A DNA stretch of 64,000 nucleotides from Ectocarpus siliculosus (taxonomy: Eukaryota; Sar; Phaeophyceae; Ectocarpales; Ectocarpaceae): the NCBI GenBank assembly GCA_000310025.1, contig FN648459.1:149447-213446 (forward strand), written 5' to 3'. The notes beneath the pieces were generated by a model. It had not been told where the DNA came from and did not search any database. It worked only from the letters and a program-made list of their open reading frames with translations. Shown here piece by piece: positions 3,549-40,095 of the stretch; the stretch's first letter is position 1, and each line of letters starts with the position of its first letter. The position numbers and the translations under genes are program-made.

Positions 3549-5631
3549 CGCTGTACCAACACCTGGCCTAGCTAGGCTCCACTCGATATCGTGTTAGTGC
3601 ACTGCCGCCCTCAGCGGTCTGTGGTGTTGAGACTGGGGACTATGTTATCCCAGGAACAGCTGATAAAAAAGGACCATGTATTGTATATATATTCGTCACG
3701 CAAGCCCCTCAGGCAAGCTGGTAATCGACACGCAAGCCCCTCAGGCAAGTGCCCGGGGGCCCCGCACTTGGACCACAACCGCATACATACATACCCTCAC
3801 ACCCATACTTCCCATACGCGTATCCCCCACAGAGGATGCACAGATCGGACTCATATCCAAGTACCACAAACAAAATTAAAAAAACTACCATATAATAATT
3901 GAGATGAATCACACGGCGGGCTCAAGGTGCATCTGCTCCAAGCCGAAAGAAAAGTGAGTGGTGGACGCCATCCTCCGCCCATCAGCAGAGCCGCGGGATA
4001 AGCCAAACGGCCGGGCACAACAACCTCGCCGACGGCCTCCACCGCCAGCTCGTCGCGTTCAGCAATGAATGGGTGTCGTCCCATCACAGCCAGACCCGAT
4101 CTCGCGAACCGTCGGATAATGGAGGGGCGGAGGAAGGCGAAAGGGAAAACATTTCCAATCGGTCCCTAGCCATTGCCGACTGAGGTAGGTGACGTAGTGT
4201 CGGGAACACAAATTAAAGACACTCAGTCAGTTAGTTAGGTAGGCCTACTTGTACTCTACATAATCGGAAATCGGGGGTAATTTTGTTCCATTTTGGGGCG
4301 GGGCGGGGACATATCCCCATGTACCCTCGGGTTTTCCGCCGACGCGTCGACGCTTCGGCGTCCCGCCCTCGCATGGTTTGCATTATCGCTGGCGCTGAGT
4401 AGCTGTGGAGATCGCAGAGAGATGGCAGACACGCCGTACAATACAGGGTCGTCTTCGCAATGTTCTCATGCATACCCCCACGAGAATCGAGGAGCAGCCG
4501 CTAGCCAGCCCGCCAGTCGACCGTGTAGCCTATTGGTCAAGTCAAAACGTAAGAAGACGAACGCTACGAGTAGATTTGCGAGACTATGTTCCCTGTCGTG
4601 CAGTGCTAGAAGCAGCAAGGGCCAGATTGCAACGCAGCAGGTGGTTCCAAGTGAAACGTGGTCAATGACCTGCTCCAAAAGAGTTGGATTGATTTCCAGC
4701 TTTGATCGATACTAACTGCTGTATGGTTTCTTTCGTAGATATTGGGCGCTACGCGAACTACTGCAGGCTGCTTAGTTCCGTGTGTTCCGTCGTAGAACGG
4801 CTGGGTCAGTGCGTGCCGGCGTCGATGACGACGAGATAGATGCAGAACGGGTAGCGAGAGTCAAACATTTTTGGGTGCCATCCATCTACACTGTAACCGT
4901 ACTATATTTTTTCGACGATTAATGGTATTTTCCGATTTTCTCCCCCCTCCGGGGGGCTAGACGATGTGTCCATTATATATACCGTGCCCTTGTCTTGTTT
5001 CATACACATGTCTCCAAAAGTTGCAAACATATGAGGGGCAGCACTAATGTAGTTTTCTGGTCGTTGCGTACCAGGTCGTCAGTGCTAGGGAAAAGTGGTC
5101 CTGATACATTGATGGTGTTGTTCATATGATACGAGGTATTTGTTTTGTCCGAGTTGTGTGCAGCGTTTCCTCTCCGTTTGGTGTTAGCCTTCGAGCTTCG
5201 CCTGTGCGGTGATGCCTCCTTCGATGTGGACGCCGATGTTGTGTGCCCACGGGCCCCTTATTTCGCGGTAGGCCAGAGTTCTACAGTGAGTGATATAGAT
5301 AGTGAAAATGCTAGGGGAGTTGCTTTAGGGCTACAACGACCTGTCGCGTAAGAAGGCTCCCTGTAAATTATCATTGGGAAAGACAAGCCACATATCCAGG
5401 CCTTGGAGAAGGTGGTTGCACAGGTAAGATGTACAACACGTGCACATTAAGAATGACGCGCATCTATCGGATTGTCTGTATATACGGGGGCCATGCCCGT
5501 AGTCTTGTTTCGTCTCCACCAGCATGGAGACATAACGACGCTCGCTGGGTGTCTGTCCAGCCTCGCCACCCAGGCCCTCCAAAACATCACCCACTGCGCC
5601 AATCTCCTACACTATTTGACAAATGTACTCA
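3549..5631. other. no gene seen; short tandem duplication
   Basis: No open frame with recognisable character is present. A short direct duplication (core ACGCAAGCCCCTCAGGCAAG) occurs at about 3698 and 3729. The rest appears unique and non-coding. Confidence 0.4.
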
Positions 5632-6360
5632 GCTTCCATGGAAGTGAATTCTGACTTCCATGGAAGCTGACGCTACTTCCATGGAAGCTACTCCCTACTT
5701 CCATGAAAGTGACACGTTTTTACTTCCATGGAAGCGCTGCGCGACACTTCCATGGAAGTCAACTTGACTTCCATAGAAGTCATTATTGAAAAAGGTGAAT
5801 GTGCCACTTTCATGGAAGTCGAATGTCCATGGAAGTCCGATTGGTCTTCCATGGAAATAGAGTAGCTTCCATGGAAGTTGAAGTTTAACTTCCATGGAAG
5901 CTACTCCATAGAGGACAATGACAGCTTCCATGGAAGTAGTAAAGCTTCCATGGAAGTGAGATCACGGACTTCCATGGAAGCTCTTTCGAATGGCATGAGG
6001 TAGCTTCCATGGAAGTCCACAATGGTTTACATCGCTTACATGGAAGTGAGATCACGGACTTCCATGGAAGCTCTTTGGAATGGCATGAAGTAGCTTCCAT
6101 GGAAGTCCACAATGGTTTACATCGCTTCCATGGAAGTGTCTGTCGACGACTTCCATGGAAGTCATCGAACGAGCTTCCATGGAAGTGTATTGCGTCCATC
6201 CAACTTCCATGGAAGTAACCTCCGCAAGACTTCCATGGAAGCTGTCAAAAAATTCTGCGCGTGCTTCCATGGAAGTCTTGGCATCTTCGACCAGCTTCCG
6301 TGGAAGTTGATTTCCACCGCTGTCACCATGGAAGTTCTTGTAGTCAGCTTCCATGAAAGT
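5632..6360. repeat. palindrome cluster 1: about 19 perfect CTTCCATGGAAG copies
   Basis: The 12-base perfect palindrome CTTCCATGGAAG recurs at irregular spacing of about 10-50 bases. I counted 19 perfect copies and roughly nine with one or two changes (for example CATGAAAG, CATAGAAG, TTCCGTGGAAG). Each copy is usually flanked by A/G on the left and C/T on the right, extending the palindrome to 14 bases. Spacers are mostly unrelated. One segment is duplicated: about 5953-6040 repeats at 6041-6128 with few changes. The array reads through without stops as FHGS, LPWK or SMEV strings in all frames, so the long frames on both strands here are not genes. Confidence 0.95.
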
Positions 6361-9300
6361 TTTTCTGCTCGACGCCACGCCTTAATATATATTAGACATT
6401 TTCGGCCGGCCGGGTATCCATGGGAAAATCAGTAAATTTTCCACGCAAGTATTACACGTCCCGCCAGTTTCCATGTCGACGTCATCTCCGAAGACTCTTG
6501 AGTATATTATTACGGTGCAGGGTGTGCACGTCGCTCTCTCTGTGATGTCGAGATCAGCTTTGATGAGTCGTGATACCTGGATGTTGCTGGCTCTGTACCT
6601 CCACGGCATCTGGCAACAGGCGGCATTCGTCCTATATTGGTGTGGGGTGAACCACCTTTTAGGTGAAAGTGGAGGAAGCGCGAGGTGAAGTGGTGGAAGT
6701 GGTGGAATTATTGGAAGTCAACTAACTTCCTCTGAAAAGTGGGAACAGTTGGTGTTTGTCAATAGTGTCATGTGGAACGCCTTAGGTCGAAGTCATGGCA
6801 GCGCCTGTCTGTGTTAATTATCTGGACGTCGTGGAAGTGAAACAATTCTTCCATGTAAACTCGCCTACGGAGAAACTTCCTTATAGTCTCAGGTGGGGCG
6901 CTTTTGGTGGAAGTCGCGGCAGCGCTTGGCGAAACAGCACGGAAGACTTAACCACTGAAGACTGGCGGTGCCTGCGTTATTTTATTCACCACCTGTAATC
7001 GGCATCATTGTAACGGCTCCACGTATGACCGTCCACGGCCTCCTTCGGTACACAGTCAACACCAGACAGTGCTCGTGTTCCGTACCTACCTGTTGTCGTA
7101 TCCGCCCCCGCTTAGTTGGATTCGGCAGCAACGCCTGCCGTGTCGTTCTTTCCGTAATGTAGCACATGCGGTTACACACTACCAGCTCCCCGCTTCTTCT
7201 TGGACGTGTTTCATTGATCTCCTTATAAAAATATTCGAACGAGTAGTCAACAGTGGGACTTGCAGGTACGACTACGACGTACAAATCCAAATTCCTCACC
7301 ACCCTCAACATTTTCATCCATGCCATCCAAGTCAATCGAGCGACACGTCGGCATCGCATACAATATGTTCTGTCCTCGGGTTGGTATCCGCTTTCTTCCT
7401 GGCGTTGCTCGCGCGTGGAATACTCACCAGAGTTACAGGATTTGCGAGAGTTGACCACGTCATCCGGCCCTCGTCTATGTGGTCCTGACTAACATCGCGT
7501 GCCCCATCGGTAAGTGCCGCATTGTTGCTTCACAATAAGAAAAAACTGTTCCGGTCTCCGATCAGTACCTCAAGAGGTCCGTACTGGTCCAGCTGACGCG
7601 GACGCATTCCGTGATTCCGTGTTAACAAGCCAAAGTCGGGGTTGTTGTTGTTGTTGTTGTTGTTGTTTTCTTCACATTAAACTCGTCTCAGTTGCTAATC
7701 CCAAAATCTAGCAAAGACTCGGCCCGTGGTCACAAAAATGCTAAAGCCATCAGAAGATCTAAAGAACACGCACACTATTAGCAAGAAAAGGGTACACAAG
7801 CCCGAGGAGGTACACCTACAATCCCTGCAGCACGTTTGCGTGCTCACAACTGAACTACACGCCCACACACTACAATTCGACTACAGCAGGCGGCATCACC
7901 CCCCTTGTCCCGCACTTCACCAAAATGAATGTTTGTCGACTACAGCGTACTGCTGTCTGAAGTGCTGTCTGTACAAAATACCACCATGGTGTATGGTGCA
8001 CAACAAACTCGGGGCAAGCAGCTGCTGTCTGAAGTGCTGTCAGAATGGTCCCGTGGACATACAATGAAGAAGAACAACCAACCCGAATCTATCCAGATCA
8101 TCTGTGTTAGACACAGCAGTGTAAACATCGGCACTGACTAGGAATCGTTCCATATTGAAGGGGTCTTCCACGATGCAGGTACACAATTAAGGCACCCGGG
8201 TTATCCGCGCCACCTCTGCCGCGTCTCTCTACAAAACCAGTGACGTCATTCCACACACCTAACACCTATATTCAGGAAAAAAAACGGAAAATAATTGACA
8301 ACACAAGAGATGTTTGTCCGTGCGACACGGTTCGATGCCGTCCGCATGCTCCGGTTCCGCTGCTGCTCCGGTGCCGCTGCTCCGGTGCCGTTTCTCCGGT
8401 GTCGCTGTGGCCAGTCCTAGCACGACCAAATTCGACCCGCTCCGCTTCGTACACGCTCTCGCTGCTGTCCTTCCCAGTCGGTTCCTCGCTTTCTCCCTCG
8501 TTGCACTTAGGGTTCTTGGTCTGAAAATTCTCGCGCCGAAGGGTCAACCAGCCCAGTCAGCTCGTCACCACCTGTCCCCTCCTCATTTGATGGCAAAACC
8601 AGGTTACTGAGACAGTACAGCTCCCTCTAGCAAGCATAGGGCCGTGTACATAGTGCCCGTCCACCTTTCTGATGGCGTCTGCCTCCGCGCACAAAGATGA
8701 GATGGGCATTGCTGCCTGCACCGACGGCCTCGAGGCCCGCGCATCTGCACCTTTGTACCTGACGCACCAGTGCCGACCCAACTCCACCACTACGCACGCC
8801 TTGCCGCGGGTGCGCCGTAGCAAGAAGGTATCGGTCCCTTGAGGATGAGTCTAGCCCTGCTCGCTAGAAAGACCCCCCCCCTCGCTTTGGGTCATGCCTA
8901 AGCAAAACCTTGCCGAGGCAGCGAGGGGAAGAAGGGGGTATGTACACCTTAAAAATATAAAACAAAGGTCCCCATAAAAATTACCCAAGGCATTTACTTA
9001 CCACCCGAACGAACAAGAAAAACGAAAGAAAAACCAAACGGGTAGCAGACGATCGACCCCGATCGTAATGGACAAACGAACAAGGTATTCCCTGGAAAAG
9101 ACAACAGAAGGAGATGAAGACAAAGACAAGAGGGAAGGTAGACAGGTTCCGTCCAACGCTCCAGTCCAGAAGAAATAACAACGAAAAGTATAGGCAACTG
9201 CTGACGCGACACCACACAGACAGACGACTTACTTTCGACGACAATACAGCACTCGGGGTCTCTCCAGTTAACACGAAAACCAATTTATACCCCCCCCGTC

Positions 9301-9481: not shown

Positions 9482-12400
9482 TCAGCCGTCGAAGTTGGCA
9501 TCTTCGGACAGGAGGTTCGAGATTAGGAGAGTCTCGTTCCTGACCAGGATCGCATGGCTCAGGAAGAAGTCGCGTAGCACTCGGGGCATCTGTTTGACGG
9601 AGTGCCCGAAGCCTGGATGGGGGTGAGACAAAAAGAATGGAAATAAACGCTCAAAAAAACAAGATGGCGAAGGACCGACTCGTATACTCTAGGGTTGCCG
9701 AAGGTACAAGACAACTACCAAAGTTATTCCACCACATCACCATGTTAGAAGTGATCAACTTACAGGAACATAGTACCAAGTACAACGAGACCCGATGGTA
9801 CACTCCACGGTACCTAAAGTACCGTTTGGAACACAGTTTTGTCTCGGTAGCAATGCCTGTAATTATCGCTTAGAAACAAGGTGAACGTCATTTGACACCA
9901 CCCTCTCCCAGGATTATGGTCGGTCGTGACATGCCCTTCGCGACATGTGCGGGAGGTTGGACTTTCCATTTCGTACATTGACGGCGCGTCCCCTGTCTCG
10001 GAAGAGGAGAGGATGCTTTTCCAAAGCTACATCTACTCTATGGGCGGTCGCCCCGTTGGTGTTGTGGATAAAGAATACCCTCCGCACGCACCGCAGGAGG
10101 AAGGTGGGGGACGCACATATTAAGAAATGAAAGAAGGAAGTTTCGATACCGATCCCTTCCTGCGTGACCCTAGATTCTTGTAGTTGTACGAAGAAATACA
10201 CTGACAAGCGCAGAACTCTTCATATAGGTGCTGAAACACGTCTCACCACACAAATGGGTGCGGCGGTCGCCATAATTTATACGACGAAAATACGAACACC
10301 ATCAACGGTACGAATCCGAGAGCCAGGAGTTGTTGCTTTCGGCCCGCGAGCTGTTCCACAGGAACGTCTCTTGCCCTTCCGGGGTCACGTGCCACAGAGT
10401 CGGGTCGTCTCGTGCCTCCGGTGAGTTGTGAAGGGCGCATTGTTCCTCCGTGTGTTGGCGAAAATGGAACCTGGAAGTTTCAGCGGAAAGAGGTAACGTC
10501 TCTCCGCAATGGTACCCATAAAAGTCGTACACCAGTGTGCGTGTAATCGACACAATTAATGGTACTCGAGTCATGGCTGTACGATTTCAACCACCGATCA
10601 TGAAGGAATGCGTACGAGTGAATGGCCGGGCCGCGGGAATATCCAGCGGGGCGTGGAAACTGGGCAATGGTGCATCGGTGGATAACCCTCTCGTCGGGCT
10701 TGGAATCTCTCAGGGCCGCAGCCGATCGTACCCCTGACGGAGGTTACAAGCGTCGTACACTTCACGACAATGCTCACCTGTCCACAATGTAGCGCGTCAG
10801 TAGCCAACCATCATCGGGGTGGAGGATGCGGTAGGGTCGCATCCTGCACGCTAGATCGTAGAACAGCAAGTCCGGCCTGCATAAAGGGTCTGGCCAGATG
10901 CTCTCCAGGGCCTCGCAGACGACCACCATACCTTCGTAGGCCCAAAGGTTGGCGATTCCCGTGATGATGCCATAGCTTAGACTCCCAACGAGATGGCCAT
11001 GGGACATGTGTCTCGAAAACATGAACCTTAGTAGGCGCACGTCAGCGGGCTGCGGATAGAGGCGCAGGGCAATGGCATAGACTAAGTGAAAGCAGTTAGT
11101 ATTACACAAGTGGGCTGAAAACGCTACAGATATTTCAATTGACTACGGAGATGTGGCGGTGCGGAAAGTGCAGCGTTGAAGTAAATAATAGAGTTTCCCT
11201 CCAACCCATACAACAGGTGGCCCTTCCCCACGTTATACGAGGCTTGCCGAAGGGAATTACATCCTATATACGCGACCAGGGAGAATAGCTGCCCCCCGCC
11301 CCCCGCCCCCGTCCTCGGTGTTTGCCAGCGAAGTCGGGTTTTCGTCGCTGGCAACGACGTTGTGATACAAGACTACGGCGTCGTTAGCTCGGTGATCAGG
11401 CTTCAGCTTCCTTTCGCCTCTGATTTTTTGTGCGGTTACCACAATGGTGGCAGAGGGCTAGATGAGTGGTTTCTGTTAGAGATCCCCGACTCAGTGCAAA
11501 GGGGACGATCGCACCACGTTGTGTGAAATTGGTCAAACACCCTCAATGCAGTTTTACAGTTTGCTTACAACCAGAAAATAATAAATCCATATGCAGCTGT
11601 CATCCGTACGCAAGGAAGTAAGCACAAGAAGAAGCCGAGCACCCTTAGCAGGATGCAGCGCGCCATTCATGCGACTCGCCGAATACCTCACAGTGCTTCG
11701 CGCTTCGTGATGTGAGAGCCTGGTCTGGTGAGAACCCGGCGTGCTCCGTCCCGGCTTTGCAGAGGTGCGAAGTCAATGGCCCAACGCCTACGGCATGCAC
11801 GACTATGAGTACTACCCCTCCTCACAAAGGGCGACATAGCGTTCGTCTAGGAGGATCCCCAAATCTGTTCGTCTTCATAGTGTAACCTTGCACGTGACAT
11901 TCCTTGGGTTGGTAAGGTGGAAACCTGTTATGAACTCCACGTTGAATAATCCCCAACGTTTACCGAATGTAACTCAAATGTATCCTTGATTGTTTGTCTG
12001 CGGAGCTTGTGTGTTGTCCGAGGTTTACGCAAAGTAACAATTTGGGGTAGGTGGCGGCTGCGGTTTAAGAGGGGGTCGGGACAAGCAAGAACATCTATGA
12101 TCTTCCACCGGTGGACGAGAGACATTACTATGTTTAACCCAAGCCAAGTAAGTGATGGCTGTTGCAGAGCGTATGTCTTGCCTACACTTCAATATGAAAA
12201 AGCTCAGTATGGAGGACATGAAGTATATCGTGTTAAACACTGCATGGACATCTTCCTGTGCATGATCGGGCGCAGACGGCTATCTGTACCGCAAACACGG
12301 TGGACGTCGTCGTTCACACCCTCTATTGGTGCGGCGTGGAGTCTGGCGGGTCTGGCGTGTGGTCGGGGACACTCAAGCAGAGTCCGCCTGCCCGATGCCC

Positions 12401-13824
12401 AGTGCATGGTAACTACCGGTTTGTGTGAGAATGATGTAGGGGGTTCGTTTTGAAGTGTTACGACCGGGTTGAATTTCTCTCTTGAACCGGCCCGAGGCAT
12501 GACAACCCAGTGTCACCCTCTTTAACACGTACTTACTCTAAAACAAAATATAAACCCGTAGGTACCACATTAACATCTTTCACATTTGCTCTGGCGTGTT
12601 CTCCTTCCACCGTGACCTCGGGACGGCAACGCAGCCTGGTGATGGTCGGTCTACGCCTGGTATGCCTCGTTGACGTTGATGCGAGACCGACAAGACGTTG
12701 GATCCATACGCGCATGCGAAATCAGGGGTAGGGGTATAGATCGCCGAGTGCCGTAATATCCGCCAATGTAGAAGCGCGGTTAGCCAACTCACCTCCCATG
12801 TTTGACCTCTCTCTCATCCTCTGCTGTAGCCGGTACCCTCCTTGGCTGTTGTAGTAGATCTACCGGTTCTTCATGTACTGGTGTGCCTGACAAGCTAAAC
12901 GCCCCGGGAGGTGGTCTTCTTCGCACATGGGAGATGTAACGGCAGAGCGGTGCTCGTACATAGGGGCAAGGTGTGCACAAACCCTGGGTCGAAATGAAGG
13001 GTATAGGCGTCAACTATTTGCGCAAAGTCATGATGGGACAGCTCATACGACGCAGTACACCCAGCAAACCTTAGACGCCAGCGACGCCTCTATGGTTCAC
13101 ACAGATAATGTGAAACAAACTGTTGTGCTCTAATCCTAACCCGATTGAACCATGACAACGAATAGCGCACAATCCCTTTAAAAGGCTATTGGGGTAGTCC
13201 CATCGAAGAAGGAAAGGCGGCATAGCGTTTCGTCATTTCGGGGTTGGACGTCACGTTTCGAGTATTGGCTCCCGTAGGACGCTGACATATGTAGTACACC
13301 TCGTGAGACATGATCTGCATATAGTCTTCGCCATGTCCGCATGGATACATCTACATCGGCACAAACCTCAGGTCCAAGGGACACTCGTGCACCGCACAAC
13401 AGGGGCCCCTTGTGGCGGTGATGCCGTCGAGGACGCCTGCCTTGACTGATCGGTCAACACCGTCGACGACGACGGTCTTGCGGCAAAGGCGGCAAGAGTG
13501 TCTGTGCCAGTTGACCTTCCCCCAGAACCCGTCTAGCTGTTCGTCCATTATCTCCCGAAGGCCCGCCAAACGATTAGTTCCTTGCTGCTGGCCCTCCTGA
13601 TCCCTCATCACAACCGGTTGTGGGTCGTCCACGCCGAGGTTCATGCCATCGGGTGCAAACCACATCCATGGTCCTGGTCGGCAACAGGAGTGGCGCGCGA
13701 AAAAAAAAGTGTGTCGCAGGCACACAGGTGCAGCCTTTGAAAGGAAAGAGCCGTGCTTGAAAAATCCTAGGTGAAGGATTAAGGGTTGTACGGGCATGCG
13801 TAGGGTGGCGCTTCCCCACAACAT
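9482..13824 (-). pseudogene. KDZ-type DNA transposase, intron-containing, interrupted by a stop
   Basis: The predicted product is a KDZ (Kyakuja-Dileera-Zisupton) superfamily transposase that would cut and paste DNA. Exons seen, in minus-strand order: a cysteine-cluster exon ending at 13367 (HSCRLC, VDG, GPCCAVHECPLDL); 12983-12793, continuing the cluster; 11081-10778, with CRPDLLFYDLACRM and TRYIVDR; 10470-10307, with FHFRQH, C-x2-H and AESNNSWLS; and 9612-9482, with VKQMPRVLRDFFL, RNE and a TGA stop. Phases agree at three introns: 13366-12984 (phase 2), 10777-10471 (phase 2, joining VDR to FHF) and 10306-9613 (phase 1). A TACTAAC branch-like site precedes the 11081 acceptor. The YD-x2-C, VDRFHF-x2-H and AE-x2-N-x-WL signatures are typical of the family. 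A TAG at 12862-12860 interrupts the otherwise good frame of the second exon. Exons between 12793 and 11081, and the N terminus, are unresolved. The range is the outer limit of open frames. Confidence 0.8.
11476..11826 (+). repeat. dispersed repeat R1, copy 1
   Basis: About 350 bases here match 56410-56788 in the same orientation with moderate divergence and several small indels. Shared blocks include CGCACCACGTTGTGT, ACCCTTAGCAGGATGCAGCG and GTGATGTGAGAGCCTGGTC. No terminal inverted repeats or coding frame were seen. It lies within an intron, or an unresolved part, of the KDZ pseudogene. It is probably a non-autonomous mobile element. Confidence 0.85.
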
Positions 13825-18772: not shown

Positions 18773-19140
18773 ATGAACGTAGGCGGCGCTGCCAAGTCCG
18801 AGTACAGAGAGGGGTGGGAACAGGCCATGAGGGAAGAGTTTCATGTGCACGTGGGCACGGGAAAGTTTTCGTTTATTTGTAGACGGCGCGCCAGATGGGC
18901 GTAGGCCTGTGGGCTCGAAATGGTGTTTCCGTTTGAAGACAAACAAGGAAGGGAACATTGTCAAAGCGCGTCTGGTTGCCAGGGGGTTGCCGCTAATCCC
19001 GAACGTGGACTATATCTATTCGTGTTCCCCTTGCCCATCATCCGCACCCATTAAACTGATGCTTGCGGGTTCAAACGAGAGGGGCATGAATCTCAATTAC
19101 TGGGACGTGAAGCAGGCATACACACTCCCCGCTGGGTGCG
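18773..19140 (+). pseudogene. Ty1/Copia reverse transcriptase fragment, frameshifted and truncated
   Basis: The first part, from the ATG at 18773, reads KSEYREGWEQAMREEFHVHV, matching the Copia segment just before RT. It then changes frame between about 18870 and 18895. The second part reads RRPVGSKWCFRLKTNKEGNI, KARLVARG, NVDYIYSCSP and LNYWDVKQAY. These correspond to RT motifs through motif A (the D of WDVKQAY). Known: in intact Copia elements this enzyme copies element RNA into cDNA. Homology stops near 19125, before motifs B and C (no YVDD), and runs into unrelated sequence with a small GC hairpin (CCCCGC/GCGGGG). The frameshift and truncation make it a dead remnant. No flanking LTRs were recognised. 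Confidence 0.85.
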
Positions 19141-19325
19141 GGGCAAATCTCACAACATTTATAATGAGCCGCGCAGCGAGCGAAGTGAGCGACATTTTAC
19201 CCTTCTCATCCCCACGAGGGAAAAAAAGGTTTATCTACCAGGGGCCCAACTTTTAATTAACGACCGCCTAAATCTTCGCTCATTTTCGAACACAACGAGG
19301 GCTTTAGAGTACAGTATGATGATCT

Positions 19326-22548: not shown

Positions 22549-24509
22549 TCAGTTCCAGGCGTCGGTTACGAGATCCGCAACCCCATCATCTGTGTCTCCA
22601 TAACTCCAGTTGGAGTCGACGCTCTTCTCGCTCACCCCGTCAGGTTCCCCATCGCTGAAGCCAGATTCGCTCGAATCCAACTTGATCAAATCGTCGAGTG
22701 CTCCGACCGAACCGTCGCTGTTATCGTCCGACTCGGGGTCCTCCAACTCTTCATCGGCGTAGCGATGCTTCTCGCGTGTCCCGGGGGTGTTCTTCAGGGC
22801 AGGGTCACTCTCCACGTTGGCTCGAACAATTCTACCAGCTGCCCGCACGACGGACATCCTTGCGTCTGCGTCCTCCGTGTCCTTCTCGACTTCCTTCAGA
22901 ATCGACTCGAGAGACCTACCCTTATCCGCTAGCTGGTTGGATAGTGGCTGTGCGGGTGCTTTACGTCGAGCACGCAGCATAAACTCAATAAGATGCTTGT
23001 CCCCAAGGGTGTTTGGGAAGAGGAAGAGTTCCCGCTCGCGTGCATCTCCTTGCGCTCCGTCGGCTCGGACCAATCGTGATTTGCTGTCGGGGTCTGCGTC
23101 CATCCCGGTAAACAAGTCCAGGACGATGCTTCGTGCGTACTTCCCCGTTATCTCCTCCATGCAATCCTTCGCTCGTTCAGCAGCTAGCCAACCGGCGACG
23201 TCCTGCCAGCAAAGGATATCACCTCGACCGAGGACGTCATCCACCATCCTCCGCACCGTGCTCAAAGGCTCTAGAAGCGTCGGCGCCTCGTCCCCCGATC
23301 CACATGGCTCGTTCGCTGCTTGCTCTGGCGGTTTGTCGTCTCTCTTCATGCTGTTCAAGCGGCTCTGGTAGCAACGGCCGCACCACCAGTCACCATCACT
23401 CACCATCGCATTACCCTCCGCGACATGATCTCCTGCAGCATCCATGGGATACCACCTTACGCGGCTCTTGTCCGATTTCCGGTACTTGCATTTACTGCAT
23501 TGGCGAAGCTCTGCCTTCCTTTCTTTCTCGGCGAAATAAGCTAGGAAGCAGTCGGGCGTTGGCAGAGGCAGTCCTTGCTGGGACTAAAGTCTCGCACGAT
23601 AGCTAGAGGCAGGGTTTTCTCTCCTTGTCTCAACGCGGCTACGAAGGTTACAGCTCGCCCTAGCCGGTCCGCGCGGAGGTGCGTGAAACCTTCGTCGTCC
23701 GGCAATCTGTGGCATGTCGAACATAGTCTCTCGTCGGCCGAGTGCACTACACTCCCGGGGCATGTGCTACACTCGGTGCGAGGGTAGTGTGTAACCCAAC
23801 CGCATTCCTGACGGCCGCACGCCTTTTTTCTCTTCTTGCCTGTTGGTTGTCCTACAGGTAGCACCGCCGGGGCAGACAGTCTCCTACCCGCATTCCGCTT
23901 GCCTGGCAGATGACCGGCTTGTCTTGGGTTCCCGCCGTGGCTCCTACGCCGAGTATCAACGGGGTTATTCCCCCCGGCCTCTGATTGTCGCCGTTCATCT
24001 TCGGCAATCGCGCGATCTCTACGAGCCGTGGCCTCCCTCCTGGCCTCGCTCTGCTGCTTGTAGTAATCCTCCTCCTCGAGCTTGCTCTCGAGGTTGGGTA
24101 GGCACCCGCCCGTGACACTAGCAGAGGGCCTCCTCTTCCTTCTCCGTTTCCTGCCAGACCGGGTCTTTCCTCCCGTCCGACGGACACGTGCACCGGAATC
24201 TCCCGCGTCGCGCTTTGTCGCGGCGATGGGGGTGCGCGCCTCGTTGGTTAGGTAACCCTCTCCCCTGCTCCCGCTCCGTCTCCGTTCACTTGTGGCGTCT
24301 CCTTCTGTGTCGTCGACCACTGGCTGACGCGGGGTTAGCGCGCCTTCCGTGAGCTGGCGAAGGGTTAGTATCGGCTGTATACCCCCGCTTCCGGGTGTAG
24401 AAGGGCTCCCATACTGGTTCCGAGGCAACGCCGGTGGCGTACCCGGTAGAGCTGTGGGGCTCTTCACCCCACAAGCCGGTTGGCCCACCCTACGTGGACG
24501 GGAATTCAT
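22549..24509 (-). CDS. unknown zinc-cluster protein, two exons
   Basis: Two minus-strand frames join through a 74-base intron (23651-23578; donor CT|GTAACC, acceptor CCCAG|CAAGG), phase 0 on both sides, giving about 628 residues. Without the intron the upstream frame meets a stop at 23541. The first ATG is at 24509, although the frame stays open to 24554. Features in order: a Pro/Arg/Ser-rich N terminus; a basic GRKRRRKRR stretch that could be a nuclear signal; a helical Glu/Arg-rich segment; a cysteine cluster (CGRQECGWVTHYPRTECSTC, then C-x2-C); after the intron, CSKCKYRK followed by DWWCGRC, resembling a C-x2-C...C-x2-C zinc site; and a long Asp/Ser/Glu-rich C-terminal tail. I do not recognise a family. 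A chromatin-type or transposon-encoded DNA-binding protein is possible, but this is inference. Confidence 0.65.
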
Positions 24510-24554
24510 CTGGCAGCAGCTCGACCTATGCCGGCCGTTTTTCCATGCATTCAA

Positions 24555-26320
24555 AACCTGACCAGAGTTACGACAACAACATGTTACTTTTGCACGTACA
24601 GCTATAAGCCAGGCGCACGCCTATTCGTGGGGTGGGATTTTCGGTGCCTCTTGACAGCCATGCATAAGGTCTGATCCTCTTTACGGGCGCGCGTATGCAC
24701 CTGAGAACGCAACGGACAGAAACCTGTTCAAATACGTAGTTATACTCCAGAGTGTCTGCAGCTAAGCGCCCCGAGTCATGTTCGGCTCGTACATTGGCAA
24801 AGCACCGAGCGTAATAATTGAACTCGAAGAAATCGTACTTGCCCTCATGAAGCCCAATTTGTCTGCAACTTGTAGTGATAGGCTGACCCTGAGCTGGCAT
24901 TATTGTATTGAGCATTTCCGTCGTATCTTGGGGTGGGAATGGTGTATCCAAAATGTACCTACATGCGCAACGTGCAAGAGCGCTGCGGACCCACGGCATA
25001 GACTCTTCTGAAATTAGAATTTTGAACATACCATGCTTATCCCCTGCCACACTAAATCGCCTCAAACCTTTTGCATTAGGTGGCAATACAACCTAGGTAT
25101 AAGGCGGTAGCATAGTTAGGGTGCAATACAACCACCTCGCGCAGAGGTCGGGTCGCATGGGAAGCTCGCTCCCTGATTTTGGAGCTGCTGCATGGTGGTA
25201 CACTCTAGCTAAAGTCCAACTTTTTCACCCTACCTTTCACAACTGTACGTATAAAACATACCCTGGTGTACCCTGGCATCTTATTTACATACCTCTCTTG
25301 AAATCTGGACAGTTTATGCTCTCGTTCGCCCTCTAGAGCCGATGCTAGGTGTGGAGGTCTGGTGCCGAGCGAGCCGCCTGATCAGAGGGGTTTCCACAAG
25401 GGGCTGCTTTCCCGTTGGAAGCATTATTCGGCGTACTTACTTTTTTTTTTTTTCAACCGTGCAGCACTGAGTGTGTATCTCGACGACCACGACGTCGATT
25501 CACTAGTGGGTTGCTGCAGATGATGCAGAGTGAGCGGGAGATGACGTACATGTGTCTGCGCCCTGATTAGTTGTCCCCTTTCATCCACCCGCGGTGCTGT
25601 TTTGCAGCGCACGAGCAGCACTTGTCAAAAAAATCATCATATGTCTTATGTGCGTACACTGCTGTATGTAGCATTTCAACAATAAATCGCAAGCACGCCA
25701 TCGCCTCAACAGGAGGCCAGCGGCCGCCAAGTGCAGCATGCGGCACCCCAGCGGTGATTCGAGCAACCAAAATGTCGAGAGAAGTGGTGCAGCCTTGAAA
25801 TCCGCGCCTGTGAGGATGTGTGCAATGAAAGATGCCGCCTGTTTCTCTGCTGCGGCTGCTGCTGTACATACGAATTCTCAAAAGCAAAATCGAGCATCAG
25901 ATATCATCTATGTCTGATCTGCGTGGTCTCTGTCTCACCCAGTGATTTTGCACCACACCAGACCATCACGCACAAAAGAACAGCAGCAGTTGCTTAGAGT
26001 GGAGTGTATAATGGTGCCACTGCGTCAGTGCGCCAACCGTACATTGCTCGTTTGCTTCTGACCATCATGCATTATCAAGCCGCTTCTCTCCTGGCCGCTA
26101 CATAGCTACAGCAGCAGCAGCAGTAGCTGTGTGGTTGCGGCACCGCAGCAGCAGCAGCAGCGAGGGGGTGTTGCTTCCATGTCCCACACACTCCTCCTTC
26201 TGTGTGCTATGTGCTGGGTCCCGGGTGTGCTGTGTCTGCTGTGTGTTGCCAAGATCGCAGGTGATGTGTGCCCCTCCTGTGCCCCTTTTATCTCGAATGG
26301 GTAGTCTTTCTGTGTGTGTA
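24555..26320. other. no supported gene; CAG/CTG microsatellites
   Basis: Short CAG repeats lie near 26108-26125 and 26146-26161, and a T run near 25440-25453. Open frames are small and mutually overlapping. No motif was recognised. The last bases flank the B2 end of the retrotransposon. Confidence 0.4.
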
Positions 26321-27170: not shown

Positions 27171-28253
27171 CTATCCGTTCCCCCAGACGGTCCCCTCCCC
27201 CGGCTGTCTCGATACGATCCTACTGCCGTCTGTAAGTTTCCGTGACACTCGCCGCGAATCCTCTACATTGTTTCGCGCGTACGGCTTGTATGCATCCGAC
27301 CTCCACTTCCCTTCTCTCTGAATCACTCGTTCTGCGATGTCTCCGCCCGATGCAAGAGCCGTCGCGCCTCCAATTCGCAACGAGTGCAACGCGTACTCCT
27401 GGGGGTTACGCCCCGACTTCGCAACCACTTCTCTGACTGCACGGAGGGCAGCACTATACCTCGCTACTCTCACAGCTCTTCCACTACGGTACGAAGCTAG
27501 CGGTGCGGAGTCAGGCAACGTCGCATGACACGATAACAGCTCCACCACAAGAGCCACCGCGCCGCCGCGTGCTCTCACACCTGACTGCGGTCCGGTGACT
27601 TCGTCTCGCGTACGAACCCGTATGTTTCCTTTCTGCTCTTGATCGGCCTTGTGCCCTCTAAACCTCATTTCGACACGGTCTGCTCGACGATATTGACTAA
27701 AGACTAATTGCGTCTCGCCAGCAAACAATGCTACATCCGCCCGCGTAAGACAGTGTGCCTCATGCACCCTGCCCGCATCGTTCGCGAACACCTCATCAGA
27801 CCGTGTGATGAAGAGATAGGACAAGCACAGACACAGCCACATCACTCTGCCCCCTTCCCCCCAGTTCTGGCTTGCGCTTTCCCCGTCCAGCAGCATACGC
27901 CAAGACACAGGCAGACGCACACGGCGTACCGTCCCCATAGCCACGTGGTTCCTCGCAATCCCCCTTAGCGCACATTTCAACATCGGAGACGACAAGTCGA
28001 GCTCGACAGAAGCTTCCAGCCTATGAAAATGTTGTACAGCCGTGAGTTTTCCGGATATTGTACTCGCTAGATTACCCTCAGACTCGAAACACCAGGCTAC
28101 GAAGTCTATCAACTCCCAGACATGAAGGTCCCCGGCACGTTGCCCTAGGAACTTGGGCTTCTCCGTCAGCCTCCGAAACGTGCACCAAGAGTTGAAGCCT
28201 GACGTGTAAGTCCTTCTAGACGAAGACGCAACTGAGTGCTCGACGAGCTGCAT
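27171..28253 (-). CDS. tyrosine recombinase of the Ngaro-like element
   Basis: A 360-residue protein expected to integrate the circular cDNA by strand exchange through a tyrosine-DNA bond. The N-terminal half is helical (SAM-like, core-DNA-binding region). The catalytic signature is complete: Arg151 in LFITRSDEVF, His290 and Arg293 in LHSLRIGGATAL, Trp317 in GKWRSD, and the nucleophile Tyr325 in AYKPYARNN, spaced W-x-S-D-x4-Y as in DIRS-order recombinases. The start is an ATG at 28253, inside the RT ORF and 88 bases before its stop, in the -1 frame relative to RT. Translation may be by reinitiation or frameshifting. No internal stops are present, so it is likely active. Confidence 0.92.
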   Translation of the reverse strand: MQLVEHSVASSSRRTYTSGFNSWCTFRRLTEKPKFLGQRAGDLHVWELIDFVAWCFESEGNLASTISGKLTAVQHFHRLEASVELDLSSPMLKCALRGIARNHVAMGTVRRVRLPVSWRMLLDGESASQNWGEGGRVMWLCLCLSYLFITRSDEVFANDAGRVHEAHCLTRADVALFAGETQLVFSQYRRADRVEMRFRGHKADQEQKGNIRVRTRDEVTGPQSGVRARGGAVALVVELLSCHATLPDSAPLASYRSGRAVRVARYSAALRAVREVVAKSGRNPQEYALHSLRIGGATALASGGDIAERVIQREGKWRSDAYKPYARNNVEDSRRVSRKLTDGSRIVSRQPGEGTVWGNG

Positions 28254-30475
28254 GCCAAGACGTCGGTAACAAAGTCCCGTCCTGCCTGTCCCAGGTCCTG
28301 AACCTGCCAGTCGATATCCGGTCGGAACGCGCGCAAGTTTGAGGCAATGCTATCGTGGTTCCACCGAGAGATGCCGTCTGCCAGTGTATTAGAGATGCCT
28401 TTCACGTGACGCGCGCGGAAACACCACCCGCTTCGCATCTCTAAACATCCTAGAATACGCATTAGCGCTCCCGACCTCGGCTCTCTAGGTCCCCTGCAAC
28501 GGTTACACCAATGGATGGAGCTCATGTTGTCTCCACGAAGCAAAACGCTTTGACCAGGATACTCGGGTGTAGAGTCTGCGTCTACCGTGAAAGCCCACGC
28601 TGTAACGACCATCCCCAACAGCTCGAGGACGTTGATGCTTAAGTCGTCTCTACCGACTGCCTTGCGACGCAGCCGTTGTCGGACATCATCCGAGAAATCC
28701 ATTCGCCAGTATTGCCCCGATTCTAAGCAGTATCCTCCCATGGCGTCCCCACTCGCGTCACCCCACAGCGTTCGAGAGTGAGGTTGCAGATACATGCTGT
28801 AAAGCGGCATCTCTAGCCTACCCTCGCCGTGAAGGCCGCTGGCCTCTGCTAGCATCATACGCCAGAACGACGCGTCGGCGCGGAACTCGGGACCCAGAGA
28901 AATGACCCGTTTCGATGGGCCCTGGCGTACTCCCCCCTTCGAGCCGATGTACTTCTCTTCCCACGGTTGGGAGGGGGGCATACCCAACTGGTTGAGCATG
29001 CGTCGCACAAAGAACTTTCCAGGGCGAACAACCACACACACGTGCAACAGCTTCCCCATCAGCGACCGCACTTCGGTCTCCGACGCGCTACGACGAACTA
29101 CCCATCCTTCAAGCGCCTCACGCAACGTCGCTAACTTTTGTTGAGGAAGAGAAATCGACATAGCCTTCGTGTCTATTACCCAACCCAACACTTCCATGCT
29201 CGCCTCCCACGACGTAAGTTTGCTAGCTGAAAATAGTGGTGGGAAACCGTGGGGTCTGTCACCGAAGAGTCGAAAGTGGTCAGAAACGAGAGATTCGGAA
29301 GAGATCACACAACGGTCACCGCGGGGGTGGGACCAGTGCACTTCTACCCCTATAACATCGTCCACATACGCCCGCGCGAAAAACGGGTCGTCTACTCCTC
29401 CACCGGAACCGGGTGGGATTGCACACGCCGCTGGCAGCATCGTTTGAACTTCTGCTGATTCCACCACCGAAATATGTGCGGTAGCAAGCCGCCCTTGCGG
29501 CGTCGGCGTTGCGTTTGCGGCTGATGTTTTGTTGTGGGAGTGCTCAATCGCTGCTGTGCACAGGCAAAAATACGGGGGGCTGAGGTTCCATCCAAACTGC
29601 AGTTGCCTGTCTACAACGAGCGTGCCTCCAAACACGTATCCGAACTTCGGGGAGTGCGCTCGCTCTACGGATACTTGCCGAAACGCGTCTTTGGAATCGA
29701 CTTTAGCAATCAGAATTGTGGGGGTGTCTCCATGGGCGTCACGCACAAACTTTCCATGCAGGTACAACACGCGCCAAACTACATCACGCAATACGTGGCC
29801 CAGTTTGCAGACCGGTGCCACGGAAGTGTTGGTATCGTCGTTTACACCCGAAAATCGGAGATCGTTGATGATCCTAGCTTTCTTGGTGTTCACTACTACT
29901 CCCAATGGAGACAAGCGTAGGCCGGGAATCTGGTATGCCGCTGATCTGGGAAACACGAATGCACGCCCGTACCGGACGTCCTCCTTGATTTTTTTCTGAA
30001 TGAGGTCCGTATGCTGTGAAACAGATGCATGGTTACCGTACGCGAGAGCTTCATCTACGTCACCGCCTGCTGCTATCTGCACCGGGACACCTCTAGACAC
30101 AATCCGCACCAGAAGATCGATGGAGGGGAACTGTTTTAACCCACCAAACCATTGACGCACGCTACGTGGGTCTGCTTGCGGCACGGGCAGTATTGTTTCG
30201 AGTTGCGACATGGAATCGAAGTCCCCTGCATGACTAAGAAGGAAAGCAAGGCTAACGTCCTCTACGCGACTCAACGCTTTCCTCGCTGATTCGCCCCCCC
30301 TCGCGGCAATTAGTTCGTCCACCGCATGTCCATAAACACACACGTCGGCATCCACACCTGCTGATAGCCCTGGGGCCAACCTCGTGTAGACCGGCGTGCT
30401 GCCGTTCAATTTAGCAGCATGTGCGCTGCCATCCGAGGTAGGCCCCCCCGCCACGCGGGAGAGCCCGCACCCCTA
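28166..30475 (-). CDS. reverse transcriptase-RNase H polyprotein of the Ngaro-like element
   Basis: About 762 residues (numbered from the GTG codon at 30454) that copy element RNA to DNA and degrade the template. RT motifs: ARIINDLRFSGVN; motif A KVDSKDAF (Asp253); motif B FGWNLSPPYFCL; motif C YVDD (Asp365, Asp366). The RNase H domain has the four acidic residues: Asp566 (GDASGD), Glu611 (VLELLG), Asp642 (RGDNMSS) and Asp693 (NTLADGISR). There is no methyltransferase or SGNH-hydrolase motif. The frame opens just after a TAG near 30475 and has no ATG for about 80 codons. It overlaps the end of gag in the -1 frame, and a G_GGG_GGC heptamer (30448-30442) sits in the overlap, so expression as a Gag-Pol fusion by -1 frameshifting is likely. 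The long plus-strand frames opposite it are antisense shadows. Confidence 0.92.
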
Positions 30476-31935
30476 TTGTCTTTCCCGTGGGTGAAGAAGT
30501 CAGCGGCCTTGGGTCTCGCGCCGCCCTCGCCAGCGGCGCGCGCCTCTCCTCCGCGCCCTCCCCCGTTGCCGTGGCCAACGCTGCGACCGCGGTGCTTGTC
30601 GCTCGTGGCGCTCCCGCCGACACCGCCCCGGCCGACACGAAACGTCACGCTGCTGGCTGCCCTCCCGCGCGCGCCGGTTGCCGGAGTTTCGGACGCTCCG
30701 CGCCTAGCGTGGGAAGGGTTCTGGGCATGGATGTACGGGCAGTTACGATCATGGCAACCGGACGACGAGTTGAAGGCGAAGCAGTAACCACGCGATCTTC
30801 CGGAAGTGGTCCCCCGGGCTCGCTTGGACGGCGATAGGAGCTGTTCTCCTGCCCGTATCTGAGGCTGGTAGAAGGCGGCGGCGCCGACCCCGCCCATGGC
30901 GATGAAGCCAGTAATCCTCTTCCACTCGATGGTTACCACGGGCGGAAAATCCTCGATGACAGTCGGCGGCGCAGAGTTTGTTGTCTTGAAACTGATGGCG
31001 GCGTCAAACCACCGCGATGCGAACAGGATTAGGTCGTCGTTGATGAATCCCGCGAACCGGAGTTTGTTCGCGGGATTCCGCATCTCGCCGCGGTTTTCAC
31101 GACAGTGCTCGGTGACCATCTCCAAGCCGACGTTGAGGGACTCCTCGAGGATGCCCACGCGCTGGAGACTCTCAGAATCGGTAATGCCTGTTTTGAGCAA
31201 CGCCGATATGGTCGTGATGAGGATCGAGAGCGACTCTTCCAACGGAACGTCGGCGTTAGGCGTGTCAGATCCCGAACGGTAGTCTTCCACCCGGAAGTTT
31301 GAGAGCGTGTCGAGCGATGCCGCCACTTTCTCTGTCACCAGAACGCCTTTGCGAAGCAAGGATTGCCACTCCATCTGCGACAGTTTTGAAACTGCCGGAG
31401 GCCGTCCCAGGATGAGCCACGCTTTTACCCGGCGGAGGTCCCCCCACATCCGCGCTCTATCCTTTGCCGCAGCTTTAGCCGCCTCGGCGCTGGGTGTAGC
31501 GGGGGCCCGAGAGGCCGGTAGTGGGGCGGTTGTGCCCACCAGTTGCACCTCCCCCTGAAGACCAGGTCCTGCTGCTTGGGTGGCGATCAGGTCGTCGATC
31601 GTTGCTTGAAGCTGCTGGCGATCGCCGGCAGCCTCATCGCGCTTCCGCTGCAGCTCCTCCCTCAGGCCGTCCACCAGCCCGCGGAGAGAAGCGAGCTCAG
31701 TCTCATCAGCGGGGGGGTCGCCGCGGGTGCCTGTCCCTCGCGCTCGCGAGGAGGATACCGCTCGACGCCTCGCGGGAGTACGTGATCCGCTGCGCGTCGA
31801 GGGGCGAGCCGTCGAGCTCGCCACCGATCGCGTGGTAGACCTCCTCGTGCGTGGTGTCGAGGGTGTCGCCGGCCGACCTCGCCCTGCTTGCCCAGCCGCT
31901 GCCCTGCCGCTCCGCGTGGAGGCCCGTGTCGGCAT
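30406..31935 (-). CDS. Gag-like protein with CCCH zinc finger
   Basis: A 509-residue protein with an ATG at 31935. Residues 1-75 are basic and Ser/Thr/Arg/Ala-rich. About 80-118 is a probable coiled coil (LASLRGLVDGLREELQRKRD). About 160-345 is a helical, ordinary-composition capsid-like region. A zinc finger follows, with Cys385, Cys394, Cys399 and His403 (C-x8-C-x4-C-x3-H; core CHDRNCPYIH). The C terminus is Gly/Arg/Ala-rich and typical of RNA binding. Position first in the element, self-association helix and nucleic-acid-binding finger support a Gag role, packaging the RNA. Sequence identity to any known Gag is not claimed. The end overlaps the RT frame and contains the slippery heptamer. 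Confidence 0.85.
   Translation of the reverse strand: MPTRASTRSGRAAAGQAGRGRPATPSTPRTRRSTTRSVASSTARPSTRSGSRTPARRRAVSSSRARGTGTRGDPPADETELASLRGLVDGLREELQRKRDEAAGDRQQLQATIDDLIATQAAGPGLQGEVQLVGTTAPLPASRAPATPSAEAAKAAAKDRARMWGDLRRVKAWLILGRPPAVSKLSQMEWQSLLRKGVLVTEKVAASLDTLSNFRVEDYRSGSDTPNADVPLEESLSILITTISALLKTGITDSESLQRVGILEESLNVGLEMVTEHCRENRGEMRNPANKLRFAGFINDDLILFASRWFDAAISFKTTNSAPPTVIEDFPPVVTIEWKRITGFIAMGGVGAAAFYQPQIRAGEQLLSPSKRARGTTSGRSRGYCFAFNSSSGCHDRNCPYIHAQNPSHARRGASETPATGARGRAASSVTFRVGRGGVGGSATSDKHRGRSVGHGNGGGRGGEARAAGEGGARPKAADFFTHGKDNRGAGSPAWRGGLPRMAAHMLLN
30442..30448 (-). promoter_or_regulatory. candidate -1 frameshift slippery site G_GGG_GGC
   Basis: In the gag frame the codons are CGG GGG GGC CTA, placing G_GGG_GGC exactly in the X_XXY_YYZ register. 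A one-base slip back gives GGG GGG CCT, the RT frame. It lies in the only region where both frames are open (about 30475-30406). A downstream pseudoknot was not evaluated. Confidence 0.6.
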
Positions 31936-32340
31936 CTGGTCGCGGTTGGAGTCGTATAAGCAGCGAACCGGCGGCAGGCGGCGGGCGAACGTCAGGGCGG
32001 CGTTTCGGGAACACTTCTTTTCCTCTTCATCGTGGGCGTAGTCGATCGCGCGCCTGGATCTGCAGTTAGAATGGTCTACAAATCCTATCTTCGGGCGAAA
32101 CTATCTGACGAGGCTTTTCGTCGGGCCCAGAACGACGCGTTGTTATATCGCGAGCTTGCGTTAGTTCGTTCTCGACGCCTGTGGATTGAGTGGAGTGATT
32201 ATTGCTGCTGACGCTACGGTCACCGTACGTCGACCAATCCCGAATATTTCTCTCGTTGGAACACTAGCGATGTTTTTATTTTATTTTATTTTTTTTATAT
32301 ATATATATTTTCTTGGATTCGGTGAACCCCGGTTCGCCAT

Positions 32341-33390
32341 CGACACGGGTGCTTCCACTCATTGGCGCGTCCCGTGCTAATACGTGTTTTTATTCTTTTC
32401 TTCGATGCGTTGGATACGGTAAACTCCACTTGCCAACAGCGCGGGTGCTTCCACTCATTGGCGCGTCCCTCGCTGAAACTGACAACACATATGCAGCACG
32501 GGTGCTTCCACTCATTGGCGCGTCCCGTACTGATACTTATACGCAGCGCGGGTGCTTCCACTCATTGGCGCGTCCCTTGCTGAAACTGACAACGCATATG
32601 CAGCACGGGTGCTTCCACTCATTGGCGCGTCCCGTACTGATACTTATACGCAGCGCGGGTGCTTCCACTCATTGGCGCGTCCCTCGCTGAAACTGACAAC
32701 GCATATGCAGCACGGGTGCTTCCACTCATTGGCGCGTCCCGTACTGATACTTATACGCAGCGCGGGTGCTTCCACTCATTGGCGCGTCCCTTGCTGAAAC
32801 TGACAACGCATATGCAGCACGGGTGCTTCCACTCATTGGCGCGTCCCGTACTGATACGTGTACGAATTCGTTTTCGATGCGTGGAAATCGGTTAATTCTA
32901 CTCGCCAACAGCACGGGTGCGTCCACTCCTTGGCGCGTCCCGTGCTGATACGTGTACGGCTTTTTTTTTTCTTTCTTGTTGAGATCGGTTAACTCTACTC
33001 GCCAACAGCACGAGTGCTTCCACTCGTTGGCGCGTCCCATGCTGAGGCTGACATCACATATGCAGCACGGGTGCTTCCACTCATTGGCGCGTCCCGTACT
33101 GATGCGTGATTTGTGGTATTTTTCTACCGCTGCGTTGAATTCGGTTAACTCTATTCGCCAACAGCGCGGATGCTTCCATTCGTTGGCACGTCCCGTGCTG
33201 AGGCTGCCAGCACACATGCAACGCCATGCGGTCAGCTCTACTCGCCAACAGCGCGGGTGCTTCCACTTATTGGCGCGTCCCGCGCTGATACATGTATAAC
33301 TTCGTGTTTCGGTGCGTTGAGATCGGTTAACTTCCACTCAACATGGACGAGTGCTTCCACTATTGGCGCGTCCGTGCTGGTGCGTATCCG
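32341..33390 (-). repeat. 15-copy hairpin repeat array in the retroelement leader
   Basis: A core, GCTTCCACTCATTGGCGCGT, recurs with starts near 32351, 32447, 32504, 32554, 32611, 32661, 32718, 32768, 32825, 32919, 33016, 33073, 33172, 33259 and 33352. Spacing is either about 50/57 alternating (a 107-base double unit) or about 87-99. The core is flanked by inverted arms, CAGCRCGGG on the left and CCCGYGCTG on the right, giving a 9-bp stem and a 21-base loop. Stems are perfect at 32909-32947 and 33249-33287, and 7-8 of 9 pairs in most others. The array lies between A1 and the gag start. Open frames through it (strings like LPLIGAS) are repeat by-products. Confidence 0.93.
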
Positions 33391-39708: not shown

Positions 39709-40095
39709 CCAGCTTCCATGGAAGTAACCTCCACTTCCATGACTTGGGTAGAATGAGCCCAAGCGCCCCCCTCACTTCCACGGATGGCGTTTCACCCTAC
39801 ACTATTGTACAAATGACCTTCTTGACAGCTTCCATGGAAGTAACCTCCATGGCGCCCCCCTCACTTCCACGGATGGCGTTTCACCCTACACTATTGTACA
39901 AATGACCCTCTTGCCAGCTTCCATGGAAGTAACCTCCACTTCCACGGATGGCGTTTCACCCTACACTATTGTACAAATGACCCTCTTGACAGCTTCCATG
40001 GAAATAACCTCCACTTCCACGGATGGCGTTTCACCCTACACTATTGTACAAATGACCCTCTTGACAGCTTCCATGGAGGAGGTCAACCTCACTTT
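39709..40095. repeat. palindrome cluster 2 as a 75-base tandem repeat
   Basis: Four tandem units, marked by CGGATGGCGTTTCACCCTAC near 39781, 39870, 39945 and 40020, each carry one CTTCCATGGAAG-type palindrome and the phrase ACACTATTGTACAAATGACC. Periods are 89, 75 and 75. The first is longer through an inserted ATGGCGCCCCCCTC-like segment. Degenerate half-sites (ACTTCC, CACTTTC) continue to about 40260. Confidence 0.92.

Follow-up and report, generated by a model that had tools for sequence, protein, structure and literature searches.

The palindrome CTTCCATGGAAG, which is densely clustered in the 64-kb stretch of Ectocarpus siliculosus DNA analyzed here (the window), probably represents a set of maintained subterminal sites of a DNA transposon. 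The best reading of the sequence is that the palindromes may be homodimer binding sites, for a putative element-associated protein, at the ends of a giant transposon resembling the KDZ (Kyakuja-Dileera-Zisupton) kind. The window is the last 64 kb of the 213-kb contig C74, and the genome that we searched comprised 189 Mb in 492 contigs. Its origin in a brown alga agrees with the abundance of the EsV-1-7 family, which according to PMC12477816 has proliferated in brown algae and is known elsewhere chiefly from giant viruses: all 150 candidates that were scored, out of 880, were matches, compared with none in 14 control genomes.

Allowing for one mismatch and counting both strands, we found 52 copies of CTTCCATGGAAG in the window, arranged in three clusters, whereas 100 dinucleotide shuffles averaged 0.14 copies and never exceeded 1. 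The motif is also enriched in the genome as a whole, with 1212 exact copies versus 6 of the reversed string. The left array at positions 5633 to 6359 contains 26 palindromes with no more than one mismatch, of which 19 are exact and 7 have one mismatch, confirming the earlier count of about 19 perfect copies in about 730 bases. The middle cluster (39713 to 40079) has 5 palindromes, 3 of them exact, and the third cluster (42061 to 42726) has 21, including 17 exact ones. Within the latter, the right array at 42168 to 42726 (20 palindromes with no more than one mismatch, 17 exact) was aligned with the arrays of loci L041, L042, L043, and L049; none of the palindrome arrays is assigned to a strand. 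Among 629 sites with no more than one mismatch, taken from the window and 22 loci (two of these being the same insertion, with L049 counted), the 12-mer was preceded by R in 93% and followed by Y in 93%. The full palindrome is therefore 14 bp long, RCTTCCATGGAAGY.

The spacers had been described as unrelated and the cluster as something other than an ordinary satellite. The second part of this statement held for the dense arrays, in which neighbor spacings are spread over 14 to 70 bp (from 481 spacings no longer than 70 bp), uniform head-to-tail units that include the spacers are lacking, and tandem structure is found mainly at 5944 to 6161. The first part held less well: this segment of the left array consists of a 90-bp unit repeated 2.4 times in tandem with 92% matches, and window positions 5888 to 6592 can be aligned to the array of an element on C30 (L041) with 83% identity. 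Spacers shared across many loci had been named as a sign of a standard satellite, and they are indeed shared, but the reason is that these loci represent copies of a single transposon family. A look for helical phasing led to nothing firm: the spacing of the palindromes gave a mean vector length of 0.22 at 10.5 bp and a broad maximum of 0.32 near 16 bp, as purely descriptive values.

Both further clusters that had been reported are present, but the middle one is a real tandem array, unlike the dense pair. It is made of 75- and 89-bp units, each combining the 19-mer of the terminal inverted repeat with one palindrome, and at 39763 to 40077 these form uniform head-to-tail repeats. The 39713 to 40079 array is an internal tandem offshoot. 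The same combination of 19-mer and palindrome has turned into a tandem satellite with a period of 75 or about 116 bp at L043, L044, L048, L049, and L050 as well, with dozens of copies of the unit in L044 and L048.

The 19-mer CTACACTATTGTACAAATG is located just outside the dense clusters and points inward at both, at 5607 on the plus strand with 2 mismatches and at 42734 on the minus strand as an exact match. The left terminus (5600 to 5625, plus strand) consists of an outer CAATCTCC and the inverted repeat TACACTATTTGACAAATG, and the right terminus (42734 to 42759, minus strand) of the inverted repeat and an outer GGGAAACC, read inward. Each of the two termini thus has the short inverted repeat yACACTATTtgACAAATG, set back from the tip by 8 bases, beneath outer 8-mers that are unlike each other. 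When up to 3 mismatches were tolerated, the pattern of left-type ends, GATCTCCCACACTATTTGACAAATG, occurred at 48 places in the genome, one of which fits better as right-type, the right-type pattern GGGTAACCTACACTATTTGACAAATG at 30 places, and a pattern of the end plus the first palindrome at 84 places, 42 per strand. The reversed control gave 0 matches in each of these searches. A second end class, CATTAYTGTCCATATG, has the same layout of parts.

Among ends of the first class, all 12 pairs that face each other at a distance of no more than 10 kb combine a left-type with a right-type end. They represent 11 independent loci, the pairs on C21 and C443 being the same insertion on two contigs. Shuffling the left and right labels gave a mean of 5.8 mixed pairs, and 12 were reached in none of 2000 shuffles; the left-type hit at C11:546303 was dropped from this test because the same place scored better as right-type. 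Ten short end pairs (L051 to L060) leave no room for a transposase gene between them, and each has palindromes on its two sides. Most of these pairs show the order of outer 8-mer (CGATCTCC on the left and GGGTAACC on the right, read inward), yACACTATTtgACAAATG, and palindromes; some left ends have a few extra bases ahead of CGATCTCC. A palindrome-rich locus of 8.5 kb, L061 (C94:93800-102403), has two facing right-type ends of different classes, and its duplication match is only 6/8. The cluster at 5633 to 6359 is in all likelihood the left subterminal region of a DNA transposon that starts at 5600, and the cluster at 42168 to 42726 is the right subterminal region of the same transposon family.

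Insertions of this family duplicate 8 bp of the target site. When we compared the flanks in 15 end pairings, 5 matched in 8/8 positions, 2 in 7/8, and 8 in 4 to 6 of 8, while among 182 cross-pairings used as controls none reached 8/8 and three reached 7/8. Pairs and controls were scored over the same small range of offsets, a few bases wide. Among the 15 pairings, the left end of the window appears twice, with a different partner each time; one element has two right-type ends, and one locus is a duplicate. The complete matches were L052, L054, L056, a 24.8-kb element on C12 (GACCAAAT), and the left end of the window paired with a right-type end on C296 (L042); L041 and L051 matched in 7/8 positions. 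The left copy of the window's duplication, CACTGCGC, is at 5592 to 5599 (plus strand), and the same 8-mer follows the right-type end on C296 with an 8/8 match, the 8-mer scored in this pairing being CACTGCGC shifted by one base. The corresponding empty target, composed of the window's left flank and the C296 flank with one CACTGCGC, is present at C57:215246 and C455:531780 with 1 mismatch each (reversed control, 0). In both places another KDZ-like gene is located roughly 1.2 kb away (C57:216495 and C455:530262). Because of the matching duplication and the uninterrupted empty target, the left array is part of a genuine insertion with its right end on C296.

The window's own ends at 5600 and 42759 matched in only 5/8 positions, and therefore the two do not bound a single undisturbed insertion. 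The right end in the assembled window is 89.5% identical to C296 over about 2.1 kb, and the assembled contig likely runs into the right end of a related copy, via recombination or an assembly switch. As assembled, the element spans 5600 to 42759, between two ends that have no common duplication, and is thus larger than 10 kb with nested elements inside. The proposal that the palindrome is a homing or target motif was contradicted by these data: the palindromes are inside the element ends, and we rejected the palindrome as an insertion target because the target duplications (CACTGCGC, GACCAAAT, CCTTGGCG, and GACCCGGT) are unrelated to it.

The palindrome itself was better conserved than its surroundings, as had been claimed. 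In alignments of all pairs of copies, including L049 and L057, palindrome sites differed in 4.9% and spacers in 14.4% of positions in right arrays, in 1.1% and 12.2% in left arrays, and in 5.2% and 16.9% in short elements, for which the middle part was counted as spacer too. Since the alignment of repeats may favor the motif, we made a stricter, gap-free count of palindromes that are exact in the first copy, against the 8 bases on each side. L049 and L057 were left out of this count as duplicates of L043 and L053, with the same flanks and a spacer difference of 0.3 to 0.6%. Palindrome and flanking bases differed in 4.1% versus 10.5% in right arrays (118 comparisons), 2.4% versus 19.5% in left arrays (14 comparisons), and 4.7% versus 20.0% in short elements (102 comparisons), the comparisons not being independent of one another. 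Overall, the palindrome differed 2.5 to 8 times less often than the adjoining 8 bases; the Fisher p-values of 6.4e-8 or smaller are nominal, as the pairs share sequences. If the motif were neutral, its being exact in one copy would not in itself make the other copy diverge less; the low divergence therefore points to selection for the palindrome or repair towards it.

Of the mechanisms considered in the original prediction, a protein-binding dyad appears to fit best with a palindrome conserved against its flanks, with the correction that the sites are at transposon ends and do not form a free-standing array. Gene conversion at cruciform-prone sites was not supported; whole arrays, including their spacers, are common to the copies as transposon ends.

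Between the arrays we found a decayed gene on the minus strand, with three KDZ-like blocks in order. Block 1 (13369 to 13746, minus strand), the first part of a CxC6 cysteine cluster, aligned to profile positions 1 to 21 of PF18721 with an E value of 0.0074, which is below the cut-off; it is 36.5% identical to its homologue on C296 and has 73 matches in the genome, including itself. Block 2 (12812 to 12952, minus strand), the second part of CxC6, contains one stop and was detected by tblastn with the PF18721-matching stretch of C296 (E 1.9e-4). Block 3 (10777 to 11061, minus strand), the core with the motif RPDLLFYDLAC, is 50.5% identical to the C296 homologue (E 2.5e-21) and has 74 genome matches including itself; it matched no Pfam family. 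PF18721 (CxC6) scored over the cut-off at 4 places in the genome, on C296 only together with its neighbors in frame, and all four places are flanked by a block 1 match and a core match on one strand. The profile of the KDZ transposase core (PF18758) had 0 matches in the genome and likewise 0 in 14 control genomes. In a Pfam scan of 14 different ORFs of the window no family model scored over the cut-off, and hAT was not matched.

The four closest relatives of the core block, with 89 to 90% identity, are on C361, C144, C404, and C25; the next relatives are no more than 63% identical, save for a split fragment on C83 (76 to 80%). The contigs C144, C404, and C25, three of these four, also carry the element's 19-mer. 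The left end on C25 is identical to that of the window over the inverted repeat and the first palindrome, and a dense right array was not seen in the stretch of C25 that was read (L040). On C404 (L048), the gene and the right-hand part of the element occur together while a 23.5-kb interior stretch of the window (11816 to 35298, no strand assigned), which holds a retroelement with a reverse transcriptase, is absent; the counterparts of window positions 11815 and 35299 are separated by 1.2 kb there. This gap has to be read with the caveat that the joining piece, 11614 to 11815, is part of a dispersed repeat found also at 56.2 to 56.8 kb. The gene order on C404 is nonetheless supported because the distance from the core block to this piece is nearly the same, about 490 bp in C404 and 530 bp in the window. 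C404 and C144 look like the same insertion, with repeat positions offset by a constant 4609 and core blocks by 4605. C70 and C144 share flanks and C404 has the layout of C144, and the three look like one insertion on several contigs.

The window contains several other features. The dispersed repeat has two copies in the window (11314 to 11821 and 56225 to 56791) and resembles stretches on C3 and C4 (L036 and L039; 70 to 87%), and its first copy sits between two KDZ-like gene blocks. An ORF at 18831 to 19253 (plus strand) resembles a Ty1/copia reverse transcriptase by eye. At 27171 to 32100 (minus strand) there is a retroelement-like run of three ORFs, with a weak RVT_1 match (E 0.02, below the cut-off) in 28166 to 30472 and an ORF whose motif resembles, by eye and with no Pfam match, that of a tyrosine recombinase; this run is perhaps a DIRS/Ngaro element nested in the transposon. 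A chain of three ORFs at 22549 to 25092 (minus strand; 344, 359, and 174 amino acids), two of which have cysteine pairs by eye, matched no Pfam family over the cut-off and may be an accessory gene, belonging either to the giant element or to one nested in it. A tandem array at 32437 to 33220, with periods of 57 to 156 bp, is built on CAGCACGGGTGCTTCCACTCATTGGCGCGTCCC.

The 24.8-kb element on C12, with its 8/8 duplication, contains a KDZ-like gene from a set with many near-identical copies. If this gene belonged to the array-bearing element, an array should be present 4.5 to 4.8 kb from the start of the core in other copies. A palindrome, even with 2 mismatches, was found at this distance in 0/9 other C12-type copies (the nine ranked next after C12 among 81 matches), with 301 bases read in each, a span that could miss an array shifted by an insertion. 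We therefore set aside the C12 gene as the transposase of the C12 element and regard it as probably a nested passenger. Within 50 kb of the ends, KDZ-like genes formed 12 pairs on the inward side and 7 on the outward side, with 1.7 expected on each (75 of the 81 gene matches were used and 6 second fragments dropped). Genes outside the ends are as expected of nested repeats, and given the outward excess and the C12 nesting, nearness to ends alone is weak evidence.

En/Spm (CACTA) and Ac elements carry many copies of a short motif just inside both ends, which are bound by a protein of the element, and these motifs are not known to be perfect palindromes. The window family resembles En/Spm and Ac in this arrangement of a many-copy motif and differs in that its copies are perfect palindromes. 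It also differs from EnSpm elements in duplicating 8 bp, as the latter duplicate 3 bp (PMC12730594, main text). Membership in EnSpm/CACTA was ruled out by the 8-bp duplication, and a CACTA string is about 10 bases inside the tip, instead of CAC..GTG at the tips. The main text of the same paper gives 8-bp duplications for Zisupton and a Dileera lineage, and terminal inverted repeats for Zisupton, and both properties are shared by the window element, unlike Kyakuja, for which 7-bp duplications and no inverted repeats are stated; subterminal features are absent from this main text. The giant KDZ elements of Ectocarpus, as described in the main text of PMC12477816, comprise eight families, are generally larger than 10 kb and reach 30.3 kb, have nested insertions of other elements, and frequently have a pseudogenised transposase gene; the authors infer movement in trans. 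Compared by description, the window element shares with them the brown-alga genome, a size above 10 kb, nested elements, and a decayed transposase gene; palindrome arrays, or other subterminal or palindromic features, are not described in that main text. A literature search, with supplements and Repbase outside its scope, found no description of palindrome arrays or subterminal repeats on KDZ ends. Hence the kind of element is known, and its dense perfect-palindrome ends look undescribed.

Overall, we favor assignment of the element to the KDZ kind of large cut-and-paste DNA transposons, with some confidence. A duplication of 8 bp does not separate KDZ from hAT, so the element could belong to another superfamily with such duplications (for example, a hAT-like one), with the KDZ-like gene as a nested passenger and the palindromes binding the element's own transposase. 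The probable nesting of the C12 gene (0/9) and the result for the 14 scanned ORFs, none with a family model over the cut-off, agree with this alternative. We consider it unlikely, as on C404/C144 the window-type KDZ gene is accompanied by the right-hand part of the element in unchanged order and the element's repeats are on the contigs of three of the four gene relatives with 89 to 90% identity.

Other alternatives concern the palindrome more than the class of the element. Perfect dyad symmetry and conservation against the spacers would fit any homodimer, and the same motif is found behind two sorts of end, as might be expected for the site of a host transcription or chromatin factor that transposons have gathered for silencing or expression and not for transposition. 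This seems quite improbable to us, given that at either end the array begins immediately inward of the inverted repeat and that L051 to L060, in which a transposase gene would not fit, have retained palindromes on both sides, as one would expect if movement depended on these sites. A further possibility is a satellite, or a short inverted motif, that propagates itself through replication slippage or hairpin conversion with no protein binding; it could account for the 90-bp tandem repeat in the left array and for the internal 75/89-bp satellite that holds the 19-mer of the end. It is very hard to reconcile with a conserved 12-mer whose immediate flanks differ 2.5 to 8 times more, because copying of tracts would carry the flanks along, and we regard it as highly unlikely.

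If a giant KDZ-like transposon uses the palindromes at its ends as binding sites, each perfect palindrome would be bound by a symmetric homodimer, either the transposase or an accessory DNA-binding protein. The many sites per end could coat the ends and nucleate a complex that pairs them across tens of kilobases, and the short derivatives that have no gene might be moved in trans, because palindromes are kept at both of their ends. More speculatively, and with a good deal of doubt, one palindromic address code of 12 to 14 bp, read by one homodimeric protein, could be common to lineages with clearly different tips (the CACTATTTGACAAATG and CATTAYTGTCCATATG classes).

To our knowledge, how cut-and-paste transposons pair ends that are 10 to 40 kb apart is an open question. 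If the arrays are a binding platform, this family would provide a natural series of site numbers and spacings, derivatives consisting of ends only, and empty sites, with which such pairing could be tested. If the code is shared, a single source of protein could serve elements ranging from 0.3 kb to tens of kilobases in size, coating their ends and bringing these together, and synapsis through many sites would lift the size limit on cut-and-paste elements. Arrays of RCTTCCATGGAAGY beside yACACTATTtgACAAATG are a simple tag with which giant elements of this family can be found and delimited.
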